A stretch of 64,000 nucleotides of DNA from an uncultured Acidimicrobiaceae bacterium (GTDB lineage Bacteria > Actinomycetota > Acidimicrobiia > Acidimicrobiales > RAAP-2): contig CAITPI010000112.1 of assembly GCA_903894295.1 (NCBI GenBank), positions 1 to 64,000 of the forward strand, given 5' to 3'. Under the pieces are notes generated by a model, which ran no database searches, was not told where the DNA came from, and was given only the letters and a program-made list of their open reading frames with translations. This document shows positions 1,988 through 62,499 of this stretch, one piece after another; within the stretch, counting starts at the first letter, position 1; every line of letters starts with the position of its first letter. Both the position numbers and the translations under genes were made by a program.

Positions 1988-3349
1988 CTACGTGGCGGGA
2001 TCGACGGGTGGCAGGCGGAGATGGGGGTCGTAGGGATCGGCGAAGCCCGGTGGTTCGGCTGCATCCCCGACGGGTGCATACCGGGCGCCGCTCACGATGA
2101 GACGGGGTCCGGACCCCCAGGACAGGTAGCGCCATGTCCAGTTGATCAGGACCACCAGCTTGTTCCGGAAGCCGACCAGGTAGACGAGGTGGAGTCCCAG
2201 CCAGGAGAGCCAACCCAGGGTGCCCTTGATGACCTGCCCCTTGGGGAACTGGGCGACAGCCGCCTTGCGTCCGATCGTCGCCATGATCCCCTTGTCGAAG
2301 TAGTGGAAGACCGGAAGCTCTTCGCCCTTCAGGCTGCGCAGGATCTGCTCGGCGGCGTGCTTTCCCGACTGGATGGCCACCTGGGCCAACTGGGGGCAGG
2401 TCGGGTCGTTCTCCGAGGGTTCCGCCTTCTTGGCCACGAGGGGGATGGCGGCGGCATCACCGATGGCGTAGGCACCATGTTGTCCGGGGATGGTGAGATC
2501 CGGATTGACCACCAACCGTCCGCCCCGGGCCGTCGGGCAGCCAATGGCCGCGGCCACGGTTCCCTCGACGGTGACACCTCCGGCCCAGACGACGGTCTGG
2601 GTCGCCACGGTTGTGCCGTCGTCGAGTTCGAGACCCTCGGAGGTGATGGACTTCACCATGCGTCCGAACCAAAGTTCGATGCCCCGGCGTTCGAGTGTGT
2701 GGGCGGCATAGGACGAGGCGGATTCCTTGAACGGGGTGAGCAGTCGCTCCTCCCCGTCGATCAGGATGATCCGGGCCTTGGTGATGTCGAACCGGAACCC
2801 GTCGTGACGCCGGGAGATGTCCTTCAGTTCGGCCAGGGCACCGGCTACCTCGACGCCGGTGGCGCCCCCTCCGACCACGACGAAGTTGAGCATGCCGTTC
2901 GTGTCGGGATCCGGCGAGTTGTCGGCCGCCTCGAGGGTGGCCAGCACGTGGTCGCGCAACGTTCGGGCATCGGTCAGCGTGTAGAGCGGGTAGCTGAACT
3001 CGTGGGCACCGGGGATCCGGAAGAAGGCGGCGGTGGCTCCGCTGGCCACGATCAGCGAGTCGAACGGGATGCCTCCGGTGGAAGAGGTGAGGAGCTGACG
3101 CTGTTCCCAATCCACGCCGGTGACGGCGTCGTAGTGGAAATCGATGTTGTCGGCCTTCCCGAACATGGAACGGATCGGGTAGGCCACGTCCCCTGACTCG
3201 AGGCCCGCTGTCGCGACCTCGTAGAGCAGCGGTTGGAAGGTGTGGAAGTTCCTCTGGTCGACAACGGTGACGTGGACCGCCGTGTTGCGAAGCCGGCGGG
3301 CTGCCGCCAGTCCGCCAAATCCCGCTCCCACGATGACAACACGATGCAT
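1988..3349 (-). CDS. ndh: Type II NADH dehydrogenase (NDH-2)
   Basis: It is a single-subunit flavoprotein that oxidises NADH and reduces membrane quinone without pumping protons. The 453-residue length fits. The FAD-binding GAGFGG is at residues 8-13, followed by the acidic strand end VVDQ. The second nucleotide-binding loop GGGATG is at 160-165. An FAD-contacting segment, YAIGDAAA, is near residue 290. The C-terminus has the amphipathic and hydrophobic anchor region LSWLGLHLVYLVGF and a basic cluster, as expected for membrane association. It starts at ATG 3349 and lies 38 nt upstream of phoU on the same strand. Some family members are other FAD-dependent quinone reductases. Confidence 0.9.
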   Translation of the reverse strand: MHRVVIVGAGFGGLAAARRLRNTAVHVTVVDQRNFHTFQPLLYEVATAGLESGDVAYPIRSMFGKADNIDFHYDAVTGVDWEQRQLLTSSTGGIPFDSLIVASGATAAFFRIPGAHEFSYPLYTLTDARTLRDHVLATLEAADNSPDPDTNGMLNFVVVGGGATGVEVAGALAELKDISRRHDGFRFDITKARIILIDGEERLLTPFKESASSYAAHTLERRGIELWFGRMVKSITSEGLELDDGTTVATQTVVWAGGVTVEGTVAAAIGCPTARGGRLVVNPDLTIPGQHGAYAIGDAAAIPLVAKKAEPSENDPTCPQLAQVAIQSGKHAAEQILRSLKGEELPVFHYFDKGIMATIGRKAAVAQFPKGQVIKGTLGWLSWLGLHLVYLVGFRNKLVVLINWTWRYLSWGSGPRLIVSGARYAPVGDAAEPPGFADPYDPHLRLPPVDPAT

Positions 3350-3705
3350 GCGTCATCGTCCCACAGTTTCTTCCACTTCCATAAACCCGCCCCGGTGGGC
3401 CCGGACCTCATCCTGTTCTCAGGCTCCGGGCCGAAGCGCCATGCGAAGGGAGACGGACCCGGCCGGATGGCCGGTTTCCGACCGGACGAAACGGTGTGTG
3501 GTGTCAAGGAGGAACGAGAGGAGGAACGAAGCGGGAAAGTTGGTGGAGCGTTGCCCCGGTCATGCTCCAGCCACCTGCTACACATCATGACGATGCCCTT
3601 TCTCCTCACGCCTTCGAAGTCCCCTCCCGGACGGTGCCGGGATGCCCGGCCCGGGCTTCACATGGGAAAGTCGGGCGCCTACGGCAACCTCCCGGGGAGC
3701 CGGGG
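3350..3705. other. Divergent intergenic region, ndh/rmuC
   Basis: This 356-bp gap between divergent genes has no convincing coding sequence: the frames crossing it lack codon-position bias and plausible starts. It holds a 10-bp direct repeat GGAGGAACGA at 3508-3517 and 3520-3529. No clear -35/-10 pair was found for either gene. It presumably contains both promoters. Confidence 0.5.
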
Positions 3706-58240: not shown

Positions 58241-58849
58241 ATGACCACCGAGCACGAAACCCGGATCACCCCGGTGACCCTGGCGACGTCCGACGTGGCG
58301 GCGACCCGATCGGTGGCAGGAGTGGTGGCCAACCATTGCCGCGTCGGTGACGTGGTCCTGCTGGTCGGCGATCTTGGGGCCGGCAAGACGGCCTTTGCCC
58401 AAGGGGTGGGGACCGCCCTCGGGATTCCGGAGCCCGTCACCAGCCCGACCTTCACGCTGGTCCGTCACTACGCCGTCCCCCGGTCCATCACGGGTCAGGA
58501 CCGGGGGATCTCGGTGCTGCTCCACGCCGACGTCTACCGGTTGGACCACCTCCAGGAGATCGCCGATCTGGGACTCGGGGAGTTGGTGGAGGACGGCGGG
58601 CTGGCGCTGGTCGAGTGGGGCGACATGGCCGAGCCGCTTCTGGGGCAAGATGCCCTGGTGGTCACCCTCTTGCCGGACGACGTACACGACGAGCACCGGC
58701 GGATCGTCCTTCAGGGCCGGGGGTCGACGTGGGCCGCCCGGTGGAGTGCCCTCGCTGCGGCATTGGAGCCATGGCAGGCCGGTCCGGCTGTGGCCGGCGA
58801 GGTGGACGGTCCGGCTGTGGCCGGCGAGGTGAAGGGAACCGACCGGTGA
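58241..58849 (+). CDS. tsaE: tRNA t6A biosynthesis ATPase TsaE
   Basis: TsaE is the ATPase that activates the TsaB-TsaD complex for N6-threonylcarbamoyladenosine (t6A37) formation. It has Walker A GDLGAGKTAFAQGV near residue 44, VTSPTFTLVRHY, HADVYRLDHLQEIADLG and LALVEWGDMAEPLL. GGGAGGAAGG precedes ATG 58241. At 202 residues it is longer than the usual 150-165; the C-terminus ends with two copies of GPAVAGEV. tsaB overlaps its stop. Confidence 0.94.
   Translation: MTTEHETRITPVTLATSDVAATRSVAGVVANHCRVGDVVLLVGDLGAGKTAFAQGVGTALGIPEPVTSPTFTLVRHYAVPRSITGQDRGISVLLHADVYRLDHLQEIADLGLGELVEDGGLALVEWGDMAEPLLGQDALVVTLLPDDVHDEHRRIVLQGRGSTWAARWSALAAALEPWQAGPAVAGEVDGPAVAGEVKGTDR
58781..58834 (+). repeat. 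27-bp tandem duplication in the tsaE tail
   Basis: A 24-bp identical stretch occurs at 58781-58804 and 58808-58831 (period 27), encoding GPAVAGEV twice. It lies after the conserved domain, so it probably tolerates change in copy number. Confidence 0.8.
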
Positions 58850-59595
58850 CGGTGCTGGCAGTGGAGACGGCCACCAGCATGGTGGGAGTGGCGTTGGTTG
58901 CCCCGGATGGTCGCCGGGCCGAGCGCTGTCACTTCGAAGGTCGCCTGCACGCCGAACTGTTGGCGCCGGCCATCGCCGAGGTGTGCGACGAGTTGGACGT
59001 GCCGCTGTCGGACATCGACCTGGTGGTGGCCGACTGCGGGCCCGGACTCTTCACCGGATTGCGGGTGGGCGTGGCCACGGCCAAGGCGATGGCCCAGGCG
59101 TTGGGTGTTCCCACCCTCGGTGTGTCGAGCCTGGACGTCCTGGCGGCCGCGGCATTTCCCCACCGGGACGGCCGTTGTGTGGTCTCGGTGGTCGACGCCC
59201 GTCGGGGGGAGGTCTTTGCCGCCGCCTATGGACCCGGACCGGAGGAAGATCCCGCCGCCAACCGCCAGGAGTGGGCCACGCCGGTCACGCCCGAGCAGCT
59301 GGAGTCCTGGTTGGACGGACTGATCGGTCACTTTGGTCCGTTGATGGTGGTCGGGGACGGGGCGGTCCGCTACGCCGACCGCCTGGCCGGGAACCCCGGT
59401 CTGGACCTGACGCAGGCTCCCTCGTTGGCGGCACCACCACCCGGCATCATGGCCGACCTGGCCCGGTTGCGACGCGACGCCGGAGTGCCCCTTGTGGCCG
59501 CCGGCGACCTGATGCCGGACTATCGCCGTCCGGCCGACGCCCAGATCAACTGGGAGCAACGCCGGCCACCGGTTGTGCCCGGCCCGGCTGCTTGA
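58846..59595 (+). CDS. tsaB: tRNA t6A biosynthesis protein TsaB
   Basis: TsaB is the inactive paralogue that scaffolds TsaD and TsaE in t6A synthesis. The 249 residues have VLAVETATSMVGVALVAPDG, HAELLAPAIAEVCDELDVPL, VVADCGPGLFTGLRVGVATA and SVVDARRGEVFAAAYGP. It starts at GTG overlapping the tsaE stop. rimI follows after 16 nt, the usual tsaE-tsaB-rimI order. Confidence 0.94.
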   Translation: MTVLAVETATSMVGVALVAPDGRRAERCHFEGRLHAELLAPAIAEVCDELDVPLSDIDLVVADCGPGLFTGLRVGVATAKAMAQALGVPTLGVSSLDVLAAAAFPHRDGRCVVSVVDARRGEVFAAAYGPGPEEDPAANRQEWATPVTPEQLESWLDGLIGHFGPLMVVGDGAVRYADRLAGNPGLDLTQAPSLAAPPPGIMADLARLRRDAGVPLVAAGDLMPDYRRPADAQINWEQRRPPVVPGPAA

Positions 59596-59611
59596 CTCCC
59601 GGGGTTACCTG

Positions 59612-60142
59612 GTGAGTCCGGAAGTGTTGGTGCTGGCCCCGATGCGCATGGGCGACCTGCGGGCGGTGCTTCGTATCGAGGAGGAGTGTTTTCCCGATCC
59701 GTGGTCGAAGCGCCTCTTCGAGGAAGAGTTGAAGCAGCGCACGTCCCGGTCGTATCGGGCGGCCTGGGTGGGCCACGACCTGGTGGGATTCGCCGGCCAG
59801 ATGTTCATCGACGACGAGTCCCACGTGAACAACGTTGCCGTCGACCCGGCCCGTCAGGGCGAAAAGATCGGCGGAGCCCTCCTCGTCGACCTGGTGCGCA
59901 ACGCCCTCGATCGGGGCCAGCGTCATCTCACCCTCGAGGTGCGGGTCGGCAACGAGCCGGCCATCGCCCTCTACCGGCGGCTCGGCCTCGCCCCGGTCGG
60001 CGTGCGTCCGAACTACTACCCCAACGGCGGAGACGCCCAGATCATGTGGGCCCACGACCTCGACGACCCGGCCTACGAAGAACGCCTGGCCGGCCTGGAG
60101 GCCGAACTGGCGGCCCACTGGACCATCGACCGCCGGTTCTGA
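59612..60142 (+). CDS. rimI: Ribosomal protein S18-alanine N-acetyltransferase (RimI)
   Basis: RimI is a GNAT enzyme that acetylates the N-terminus of S18 and sometimes other proteins. The 176 residues have MGDLRAVLRIEEECFPDPWS near the start, GQMFIDDESHVNNVAVDPAR, the acetyl-CoA loop ARQGEKIGGALL and the C-terminal VRVGNEPAIALYRRLGLAPV and GVRPNYYPNGGDAQIMW. GTG 59612 was chosen over TTG 59573, which overlaps tsaB. The acetyl-CoA loop has Gln-Gly-Glu-Lys-Ile-Gly, a normal variant. Confidence 0.9.
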   Translation: MSPEVLVLAPMRMGDLRAVLRIEEECFPDPWSKRLFEEELKQRTSRSYRAAWVGHDLVGFAGQMFIDDESHVNNVAVDPARQGEKIGGALLVDLVRNALDRGQRHLTLEVRVGNEPAIALYRRLGLAPVGVRPNYYPNGGDAQIMWAHDLDDPAYEERLAGLEAELAAHWTIDRRF

Positions 60143-60150
60143 TCTCGGCG

Positions 60151-60167
60151 TCAGCCCTTCCGGCTGA
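60151..60167. terminator. Bidirectional hairpin between rimI and the small Cys-rich gene
   Basis: TCAGCC-CTTCC-GGCTGA is a perfect 6-bp stem overlapping the stop codon of the convergent small gene, 8 nt after rimI. It could end both transcripts. Confidence 0.45.
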
Positions 60168-60306
60168 ACCACCGCTTCGTCGCCGTGGCTTCATGGCCGG
60201 AGCACCGCTGGTCGGCCGGGACGTGACCCAGCACCGATTCGACGTGGGCGCCACAACCCTTCCAGGTGGGGCGGCCGCAGGTTCGACACGTTACTTGTCT
60301 GCACAT
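60151..60306 (-). CDS. Small Cys-rich zinc-ribbon-like protein
   Basis: A 51-residue reading frame starts with [19 protein letters not shown], continues AHVESVLGHVPADQRCSGHE and ends in a basic tail. Cys2, Cys7, Cys10, Cys18 and Cys35 plus several His could bind a metal. I recognise the pattern M-C-x-x-V-x-C-x-x-C-G-x-x-T-W-x-G-C-G-x-H from small uncharacterised actinobacterial proteins; no function is established. It is the third gene of the minus-strand csoR module. The ATG lies at the end of a CsoR-type operator and 7 nt after a TACCCT -10 box inside that operator, so it is predicted leaderless and separately controlled. Confidence 0.75.
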   Translation of the reverse strand: MCRQVTCRTCGRPTWKGCGAHVESVLGHVPADQRCSGHEATATKRWFSRKG

Positions 60307-60320
60307 ACCCCCGAGGGTAT
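60305..60320 (-). promoter_or_regulatory. CsoR-type operator O2, overlapping the small gene's -10 box and start codon
   Basis: ATACCCCCGAGGGTAT (plus strand) is a near-palindrome of the ATACCCC-type sites bound by CsoR-family repressors. It matches the site upstream of csoR in 14 of 16 positions. On the minus strand it contains the -10 box TACCCT, and its last two bases are the AT of the small gene's ATG. Confidence 0.65.
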
Positions 60321-60353
60321 CAGGGAGCACCGGGAACCGGACCGCGGCCTTGG

Positions 60354-61037
60354 TTAGCGTTGGAACACCCGGGAGAGGAAGCCTTCGAGCCGGGACGGGT
60401 CGGCCGTGATGGTCTTGTGGCCGTCGGCGTCCTTGGTGATGGTGAGCCCCGGGCAGAACATGCCCTCGTCACCGAAGAAGAAGTGTGGCGAGCCGATGAC
60501 ACCCCGTCGCCCGCCTTCTGCGTAGTCATCGGCCACGGTCTCCCGGTCCCGCTCCGTGATTCCGGTGACCCCGACGGCGGCGCCGAGTGAGCGGAGGACC
60601 CCGGGGTCCGAGATGTCCCGTCCCTCTTCGAACAGGGCGGTGCGCAGCGAAAAGCTGAGCGCCTCACCTTGTTCCGGCCCCTTCCGGTAGGCGGCGGCCA
60701 CCCAGGCCAGGGCTTCGAGGGTCGACTCCGGGAAGTTGGCCGGATCGAAGTGGGCGAACAGGTCGGGGGCGACCTGGTGGCGCAGCTCGTGGACGTGCCC
60801 GGCGGTGGTCGAAGGATCGAGCGGGCGCTGGTTCACCCATTCGAGCGGCCACGCCCGGACCCTGACCGGGACGTCGGCCCGGCCGAAATTGTCTCGTTGC
60901 CGGGCCACCATGACGAGGCCGACGTAGGCGAAGGGGCACCAGATGTCGGCGAAGATCTCGAGTGGGGCCACCGCGCCGGGGCGGACGTCTCGATGTGGCG
61001 TCGGCCCGGAGTTGGCGGTGGGGGTGGGTTCGGACAT
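60354..61037 (-). CDS. DsbA/FrnE-family protein with CPFA active site
   Basis: It is a thioredoxin-fold protein of the DsbA/FrnE branch, 227 residues. After a 25-residue polar lead comes the strand LEIFADIW and the active site C34-P-F-A37-YVG. FrnE relatives have CPWC here, so the resolving cysteine is missing and disulfide exchange would be monothiol. The helical insertion (about 90-170) and the cis-proline loop GVIGSPHFFFGDE are conserved. A further cysteine sits in MFCPGLTI. There is no signal peptide, so it is cytosolic. AAGGAG lies 7 nt before the ATG. It is 60 nt downstream of csoR on the same strand, so sulfur or redox chemistry linked to that regulator is likely. Confidence 0.85.
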   Translation of the reverse strand: MSEPTPTANSGPTPHRDVRPGAVAPLEIFADIWCPFAYVGLVMVARQRDNFGRADVPVRVRAWPLEWVNQRPLDPSTTAGHVHELRHQVAPDLFAHFDPANFPESTLEALAWVAAAYRKGPEQGEALSFSLRTALFEEGRDISDPGVLRSLGAAVGVTGITERDRETVADDYAEGGRRGVIGSPHFFFGDEGMFCPGLTITKDADGHKTITADPSRLEGFLSRVFQR

Positions 61038-61097
61038 GGACACTCCTTGGGACGGGGACGGGTTCGTGGTGTCGGGCCGGCCCACCGGGCCGGTTCT

Positions 61098-61367
61098 TCA
61101 GGCCAGTTTGGTGAAAAGGCGCTGGACCTCCTCGATGGGGTAGCCCGAGGACCGGGCCTCTTCCGGGTGCTCGATGCAGTAGGCGAGGCCGGCGGCGATC
61201 AGCCGGAAGCCGACCTGCTCGAGGGCCTTGGTGGCCGCGCTGAGCTGGGTCACGATGTCCCGGCACTCCCGACCCTGTTCGAGCATGGCCTCAACGGCCT
61301 TCACCTGTCCGCCGGCCCGACGGAGCCTCACGGCGAGGTCGGCGACGACATCGTCAGGGAGTTGCAC
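61098..61367 (-). CDS. CsoR/CstR-family transcriptional repressor
   Basis: This 89-residue all-helical DUF156 protein is of the family that senses Cu(I), Ni, formaldehyde or persulfides. It has RLRRAGGQVKAVEAMLEQGR, then Cys35 in ECRDIVTQLSAATKALEQVG and Cys64 in AAGLAYCIEH. The 29-residue Cys-Cys spacing equals that of Cu-sensing CsoR (Cys36/Cys65) and of CstR (Cys31/Cys60). The third copper ligand of CsoR (His61) is Gly60 here, so a copper sensor is unlikely and a CstR-like persulfide sensor is the better guess. GTG 61367 has GGAGG 8 nt upstream. It leads the csoR-dsbA-like-small gene set. Confidence 0.88.
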   Translation of the reverse strand: MQLPDDVVADLAVRLRRAGGQVKAVEAMLEQGRECRDIVTQLSAATKALEQVGFRLIAAGLAYCIEHPEEARSSGYPIEEVQRLFTKLA

Positions 61368-61396
61368 GGTTCCTACCTCCGGTGGTGGCGGACAAC

Positions 61397-61412
61397 ATAC
61401 CCCCAAGGGTAA
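61397..61412 (-). promoter_or_regulatory. CsoR-type operator O1 upstream of the csoR-like gene
   Basis: ATACCCCCAAGGGTAA (plus strand) lies 30-45 nt before the csoR-like GTG. On the minus strand it reads TTACCCTTGGGGGTAT and contains the -10-like TACCCT, so bound repressor would block its own promoter. It is also 28 nt from the divergent tsaD -10 box and could affect tsaD. Confidence 0.65.
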
Positions 61413-61440
61413 TGGAACCGGACCGAAACCGGCGCGGCGA

Positions 61441-61446
61441 TAGCCT
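61441..61446 (+). promoter_or_regulatory. Leaderless-type -10 box of tsaD
   Basis: TAGCCT ends 6 nt before the tsaD ATG. tsaD thus has its own promoter after being separated from tsaB-rimI. Confidence 0.5.
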
Positions 61447-61452
61447 GTCGGG

Positions 61453-62499
61453 ATGACCACGTCTGCGCTCCGGTCGCCCGACAACCGCCCGATCCGCCGG
61501 GTGCTTGGCATCGAGACCAGTTGTGACGACACGGCGGCCTCGGTGGTGGACGACGGGGTGACCATCGTCTCCTCGGTGGTCTCCAGCCAGATCGACCTGC
61601 ACGCCACCTACGGTGGCGTGGTGCCCGAACTGGCGGGCCGGGCCCACCTGGAACTGCTGACCCCGGTGATCGCCGACGCGCTGGCCCGGGCCGGGTCGGA
61701 CGAGACCGGACGCGGCATCGACGCCATCTGCGTGACCCACGGTCCCGGCCTGGTGGGCTCGTTGCTGGTGGGGGTGTCCGAGGCCAAGGCGCTGGCCATG
61801 GCCTGGGGCGTTCCCTTTGTCGGGGTGAACCACCTGGAAGCCCATCTGTTCGCCTCGATGCTGGAGCAGCCCGATCTCGGCTGGCCGCTGGTGGTCCTTC
61901 TGGTTTCGGGGGGCCACTCGATGGTGGTGGAGGTGACCGAACCCGGCCGCTACCGCGTGCTCGGCGGCACCATCGACGATGCCGCCGGCGAAGCGTTCGA
62001 CAAGGTGGCCCGGTATCTGGGACTTGGCTATCCCGGCGGCCCGGTCATCGACCGGCTGGCCCGGGAGGGTGACCCGAAGGCGTTCAACTTCCCCCGGTCC
62101 CTGCCCGGTGACGGGTATGACTTCTCCTTTTCGGGCCTCAAGACGTCGGTCATCAACACGGTGCGCAAGAACCCGGAGGCGGCCACCGCCGACGTGGCCG
62201 CCTCGTTCCAGCAGGCCGTGGTCGACGTTCTGGTCACCCGGGCCACCGCCGCCGCCGAAGAGGTCGGGGCCAGGGCCATCTGCCTGGCCGGTGGAGTGGC
62301 CGCCAACTCGCAACTGCGCGAGGCGGTGGCCGAGGTGGCCGCCGGTCTTGGCATCGGGGCGTTCCTGCCGAGTCGTTCGCTCTGCACCGACAACGCCGCC
62401 ATGGTGGCCGCCGCCGGCTACTGGCGCCTCCACCACGGCGACACCAGTGGACTCGACCTCGGGGTCGATCCCAACCTCCGTCTGGTCCCGCTGGCCTGA
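61453..62499 (+). CDS. tsaD: tRNA N6-adenosine threonylcarbamoyltransferase TsaD
   Basis: TsaD transfers the threonylcarbamoyl group to A37 of ANN-decoding tRNAs. The 348 residues carry a short lead, then VLGIETSCDDTAASVVDDG, VVPELAGRAHLELL, THGPGLVGSLLVGVSEAKAL, the metal-binding His127-x3-His131 in NHLEAHLF, SGGHSMVVEV, FDKVARYLGLGYPGG and the late LAGGVAANSQLR. The family is normally in the tsaE-tsaB-rimI-tsaD order; here a minus-strand module of about 1.3 kb lies between rimI and tsaD. Confidence 0.95.
   Translation: MTTSALRSPDNRPIRRVLGIETSCDDTAASVVDDGVTIVSSVVSSQIDLHATYGGVVPELAGRAHLELLTPVIADALARAGSDETGRGIDAICVTHGPGLVGSLLVGVSEAKALAMAWGVPFVGVNHLEAHLFASMLEQPDLGWPLVVLLVSGGHSMVVEVTEPGRYRVLGGTIDDAAGEAFDKVARYLGLGYPGGPVIDRLAREGDPKAFNFPRSLPGDGYDFSFSGLKTSVINTVRKNPEAATADVAASFQQAVVDVLVTRATAAAEEVGARAICLAGGVAANSQLREAVAEVAAGLGIGAFLPSRSLCTDNAAMVAAAGYWRLHHGDTSGLDLGVDPNLRLVPLA

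Follow-up and report, generated by a model that had tools for sequence, protein, structure and literature searches.

A three-gene module with two putative operators

The window, the whole 64,000-nucleotide stretch of DNA that we analysed from an uncultured Acidimicrobiaceae bacterium, carries three minus-strand genes between rimI and tsaD, which encode a CsoR-family repressor, a DsbA-family oxidoreductase, and a 51-aa cysteine-rich protein. This module of ~1.2 kb lies on the opposite strand inside a tsaE-tsaB-rimI / tsaD-groES-groEL cluster (window 58849-62499). Most relatives of the same genus have tsaB and tsaD ~1.2 kb closer together and lack an operator near tsaD. The features of the module, in window coordinates, are as follows.

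61397..61412, no strand assigned: operator O1, ATACCCCCAAGGGTAA, CstR/CsoR-type, before the csoR-like gene (exact)
61406..61411, minus: TACCCT within O1, putative -10 of the csoR-like gene; a TANNNT with the spacing of the genome's leaderless promoters
61376..61380, minus: Shine-Dalgarno sequence GGAGG of the csoR-like gene, read from the sequence
61098..61367, minus: predicted CstR-like repressor, 89 aa, GTG start (PF02583, E 8.8e-20)
60354..61037, minus: DsbA-family thiol oxidoreductase, 227 aa, ATG at 61037 (PF01323, E 5.5e-11)
60314..60322, minus: predicted extended -10 of the small gene, TGATACCCT, mostly inside O2
60305..60320, no strand assigned: internal operator O2, ATACCCCCGAGGGTAT (exact), in the same register in 46 homologous genes
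60151..60306, minus: 51-aa cysteine-rich protein, predicted leaderless, ATG at 60306, with homologues in relatives

The original prediction held that two near-identical 16-mers with the shape of CsoR-family operators bracket the module. An exact sequence check agreed with both positions and with the match at 14 of 16 nucleotides (O1 and O2 differ at positions 9 and 16), and TACCCT-N7-ATG was read on the minus strand at both sites. The labels used in that prediction are consistent only in transcription order, with O1 at 61397 and O2 at 60305. As expected of operators of the CsoR/RcnR family (DUF156, PF02583), a pseudo-palindrome with a G/C run, ATACCC-N4-GGGTAW at 61397, adjoins the gene.

A whole-genome scan had been proposed along with the prediction, and we ran it as a pattern search with ATACCC-N4-GGGTAW. 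O1 and O2 were the only exact ATACCCNNNNGGGTAW sites in the 2.68-Mb genome, where ~0.3 would be expected by chance from a simple base-composition estimate, and a reversed control pattern had no match in the whole genome. Across 150 genomes of the family, we detected 313 forward sites compared to 3 for the reversed control. A looser search of the 64-kb window, allowing three mismatches or fewer, is not strong evidence alone, as it returned 3 matches compared to 0.93 expected. Sites elsewhere in the genome with two mismatches were rejected as regulon members; because a palindrome is counted once per strand, their number did not clearly exceed that of the control. In the source genome, the regulon appears limited to the cstR-dsbA-small gene module.

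At O1, the predicted layout held only in part. TACCCT-N7-ATG precedes the csoR-like gene as proposed, but the ATG at 61398 begins a frame of 14 codons that is out of phase with the gene, and it was rejected as the csoR start. The real start is the GTG at 61367, because the GGAGG Shine-Dalgarno sequence precedes it and orthologues agree. With TACCCT in O1 as the -10, the csoR-like transcript would start near 61398 and would therefore carry a leader of ~31 nt. This putative -10 lacks a TG extension, and a -35 is not obvious. Since the ATG at 60306 is a real start and the one at 61398 is not, the fusion of operator, promoter, and start codon is confined to O2. At window 61441-61453, tsaD, which diverges from cstR, looks leaderless, with TAGCCT-N6-ATG; as O1 lies just upstream of the tsaD -35 region, CstR might also influence how tsaD is expressed.

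The operator, predicted -10, and start codon at O2

The ATG at O2 had been taken as the start codon of the small gene, and it does open a real 51-aa gene at 60306. On the minus strand, the last AT pair of O2 is the AT of this ATG (60306-60304), and O2 appears to fuse an operator, an extended -10, and a leaderless ATG into ~17 bases. The features expected of a leaderless gene, a TANNNT ~7 nt before the ATG and no Shine-Dalgarno sequence, can be read at O2.

We surveyed 103 distinct small genes from genome searches, and the counts that follow are among the matches listed; the named records include Ferrithrix, Desertimonas, Acidiferrimicrobium, Arthrobacter, Microbacterium, and Glutamicibacter. 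The fusion was kept in 46 of the 103, among them genes of the cultured relatives Ferrithrix thermotolerans (L182), Desertimonas flava (L212), and Acidiferrimicrobium (L211). In the 46 genes, TACCCT starts 13 nt upstream of the ATG, TG precedes it in most, and a Shine-Dalgarno sequence is absent from all 46. In sixteen other small genes the operator is 32-104 nt upstream, and 13 of these genes have a Shine-Dalgarno sequence. The remaining 41 have no operator within 110 bases, although some of these 41 sit in operons behind cstR or sqr. Six operator-less homologues still have TANNNT at -13. The T that completes the -10, at operator position 7, was present in 46/46 fused sites compared to 2/18 operators further upstream of the same gene. 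One fused site came from a record labelled Acidobacteriota (L206), whose protein is almost identical to an actinobacterial one (L222); this record is probably a case of mis-binning or transfer.

Within the window, TANNNT starts 12-14 nt upstream of 7 of the 31 first ATGs of coding-like frames, compared to a single TANNNT among the same 31 for all other 35 offsets together. On the homologue and window comparisons together, both the -10 and a leaderless start are very likely at O2.

Repressor class, sulfur genes in relatives, and the small protein

The repressor gene is the sole PF02583 (CsoR-family) gene in the genome, with a score of 71.3 bits against a curated cut-off of 22.8. In an alignment to solved CsoR-family chains, C35 and C64 are present and a Gly occupies the position of the copper-ligand His, where it aligns with the ligand His of the copper CsoRs 4m1p and 4adz. 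The chain 7mq1, which we take to be the pneumococcal persulfide sensor, also has a non-His residue at this position. The copper-ligand His was absent in all 45 relatives, and both cysteines were invariant in an alignment of 15 diverse relatives. The His-to-Gly change thus breaks the Cys-His-Cys copper-ligand set of CsoR and RicR, leaving the CstR-type combination of two conserved cysteines without a metal-binding His. Judged by these residues, the repressor resembles the reactive-sulfur sensor CstR rather than a copper CsoR.

We then compared 40 stretches around cstR genes and operators, drawn from 30 related genomes, and checked representatives against Pfam. The recurrent neighbours were Pyr_redox_2 (SQR-like), Pyr_redox_2 with rhodanese (CoA-disulfide reductase-like), DsrE_2, DsrC, DUF302, YgaP-like, and MMPL proteins, as well as a PF03601 exporter and methyltransferases, and there was no copper exporter among these recurrent families. 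The SQR and CoA-disulfide reductase identities in relatives are our readings of Pfam domains and sequences. Only DsbA and the small protein adjoin the repressor in the source genome, whereas sulfide and sulfane-sulfur genes adjoin it in relatives. Searches of the source genome (~95% complete) revealed neither a close SQR nor a close CoA-disulfide reductase, so the sulfur pathway that would make the nature of the signal evident does not lie beside the module. The nearest thing to an SQR in the genome was encoded at window 1990-3352 on the minus strand, but this candidate was rejected, as its sequence looks like an NDH-2-type FAD dehydrogenase.

Orthologues of dsbA occur in the CstR operons of five relatives, with an operator between this gene and sqr in L111, L113, L115, L117, and L146. 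The window keeps this dsbA-operator order, with the small gene next in place of sqr. Since the order is kept in the window and in five relatives, the predicted internal promoter, with repression of its own, is a common trait of the operon. In the source genome sqr has apparently been lost, an order of events that we infer. At the sqr promoter of the relatives, a TANNNT -10 comes directly after the operator (L111 13215, L113 5858, L115 4971, L117 6117, and L146 8197) and precedes a leader that has a Shine-Dalgarno sequence; this layout is a second promoter arrangement for the same operator. Overall, the comparison supports the proposed local regulon with autoregulation and an internal promoter under separate repression; one CsoR-family gene, two operators, the post-dsbA operator in five relatives, and the fusion in 46 genes all argue for it.

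Homologues of the 51-aa protein were found in 26 of 61 relatives, with at least 485 confirmed matches in named genomes. Its invariant residues are M1, C2, C7, C10, G17, C18, G19, H21, and C35, which include a C-x2-C-x7-C-x2-H pattern. For 38 members of the family, Pfam and NCBIfam gave no convincing match (best E 0.02-0.1), and weak matches to DUF702, Fe-S, and PHD models in this range were disregarded. A search of the PDB returned no sequence or fold match, and we found no report of this small protein in open-licence papers. Because the AlphaFold2 model is weak (mean pLDDT 72, pTM 0.44) and all Foldseek matches to it were insignificant, we make no fold claim.

The small gene was detected in 48 of 396 sampled genomes of the phylum. 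High-scoring CstR-type genes were present in 29 of the 48 genomes with the small gene compared to 23 of the 348 without it, at a score cut that we chose ourselves and in counts that ignore shared ancestry. The two genes are neighbours in several genomes, and on the Clavibacter plasmid pCM2_1101 the small gene sits beside a metal-sensitive-regulator/rhodanese/FAD-oxidoreductase set. These patterns suggest that the small protein is an uncharacterised, recurrent member of the CstR regulon. Our guess is that it handles thiols, sulfane sulfur, or zinc through C-x2-C-x7-C-x2-H together with C2 and C35. On Rhodococcus and Clavibacter plasmids (L267 and L268), the small gene was matched where no gene is listed underneath in PLSDB, whose table is incomplete; the gene may be under-annotated.

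Alternative readings and the proposed circuit

A copper-sensing CsoR/RicR regulon, with the small cysteine-rich protein as a copper metallothionein in the manner of RicR-MymT, would account for some of these features. RicR is the best NCBIfam match of the repressor, albeit at 44 bits against a cut-off of 175, the operator shape is common to RicR and CsoR (PMC7533328), and the small protein is rich in cysteine. However, the ligand His is replaced by Gly here and is missing from the 45 relatives, the neighbourhoods in relatives carry sulfur genes with no recurrent copper exporter, and the cysteine spacing and invariant His of the small protein are zinc-finger-like, not metallothionein-like. The missing His and the gene neighbourhoods rule out a copper CsoR as the leading view, and we regard a copper regulon as improbable. 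A two-cysteine regulator could also respond to another signal, such as formaldehyde, nickel/cobalt, or another electrophile, and the FrmR and RcnR family models do match the repressor, although weakly. Given the different ligand pattern and the sulfur-related neighbourhoods of many relatives, we consider a signal of this kind very improbable.

The operators could also be real while the small gene is expressed mainly by read-through from cstR-dsbA, with the O2 -10 as a by-product of the palindrome. The small gene shares its strand with dsbA, which ends 33 nt short of O2, and two relatives have the small gene after sqr, preceded by a Shine-Dalgarno sequence of its own and without a fused site. 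The position-7 T that sets fused sites apart from upstream operators, with TG preceding the -10 in most, speaks against a by-product, as does the TANNNT retained exactly at -13 in the six operator-less homologues. In addition, many genomes carry a fused small gene with no cstR in the fetched flanks. We therefore doubt that read-through is the main route, and give it little credence.

The reading that we prefer, and consider likely from the combined sequence comparisons, is a small CstR-type reactive-sulfur-response module with two operators and a leaderless small gene. The CstR-like repressor would bind two copies of ATACCC-N4-GGGTAT. At O1 it would cover the -10 of its own cstR-dsbA transcript, resulting in autoregulation, while at O2, behind dsbA, it would cover the extended -10 and the start codon of the leaderless small gene. 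Modification of C35/C64 by per- or polysulfide would cause the repressor to let go, and both promoters would fire. The expected output is a leadered cstR-dsbA transcript, perhaps running into the small gene, and a leaderless transcript of the small gene. Repressor binding, derepression by reactive sulfur, and the transcript starts are thus predictions of this model.

We lean slightly toward a broader proposal, in which the phylum-wide family of ~50-60-aa cysteine proteins is a core CstR output (e.g., a sulfane-sulfur or zinc carrier), and in which Acidimicrobiia have compressed operator, extended -10, and start codon into ~17 bases that the repressor covers. An unstudied small-protein family would then be tied to reactive-sulfur regulation and gain a testable function, and a single short sequence serving as repressor site, promoter element, and start codon would represent a minimal natural switch. 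What is new here is a variation on the CstR-type circuit, in which operator, promoter, and start are compressed into one element and the output is an unstudied small protein.

Parts of this circuit resemble known systems. In Mycobacterium tuberculosis, RicR is a CsoR-family repressor that controls MymT, a small cysteine-rich target, in a copper system, and the present module likewise pairs a CsoR-family repressor with a small cysteine-rich protein. MymT is not known to carry the residue pattern conserved in the 51-aa protein family. The repressor shares with Staphylococcus aureus CstR, a sulfide/persulfide sensor, a cysteine pair without the copper His; the likeness to its sulfide-detoxification neighbourhood is found in relatives of the module, whereas no cst-type operon genes lie beside the repressor in the source genome.

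Streptomyces coelicolor ScCsoR (SCO0620; Cys37/Cys66) acts as a repressor of its own gene and of sulfane-sulfur genes; it binds a 16-bp operator, ATACC-N6-GGTAT, from which polysulfide releases it (PMC7533328). Its targets are a persulfide dioxygenase with a 12-nt leader, a rhodanese, and a transporter, and one of its sites is at -9 from the target transcript start (PMC7533328). The repressor described here is likewise a two-cysteine CsoR-like protein with predicted autoregulation, and O1 and O2 fit ATACC-N6-GGTAT, but its predicted targets are DsbA and a leaderless 51-aa protein with its start codon inside the operator. In open-licence papers, we found no report of a CsoR-family operator over both a -10 and a start codon. 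CsoR-family control of a leaderless transcript is itself known from Mesorhizobium NreA, a CsoR/RcnR-family nickel sensor that represses such a transcript through a 19-bp operator (PMC12724321). The module would share this predicted CsoR/RcnR-family repression of a leaderless transcript, but the NreA operator is located between the -35 and -10 (PMC12724321), whereas O2 overlaps the predicted -10 and the start codon.
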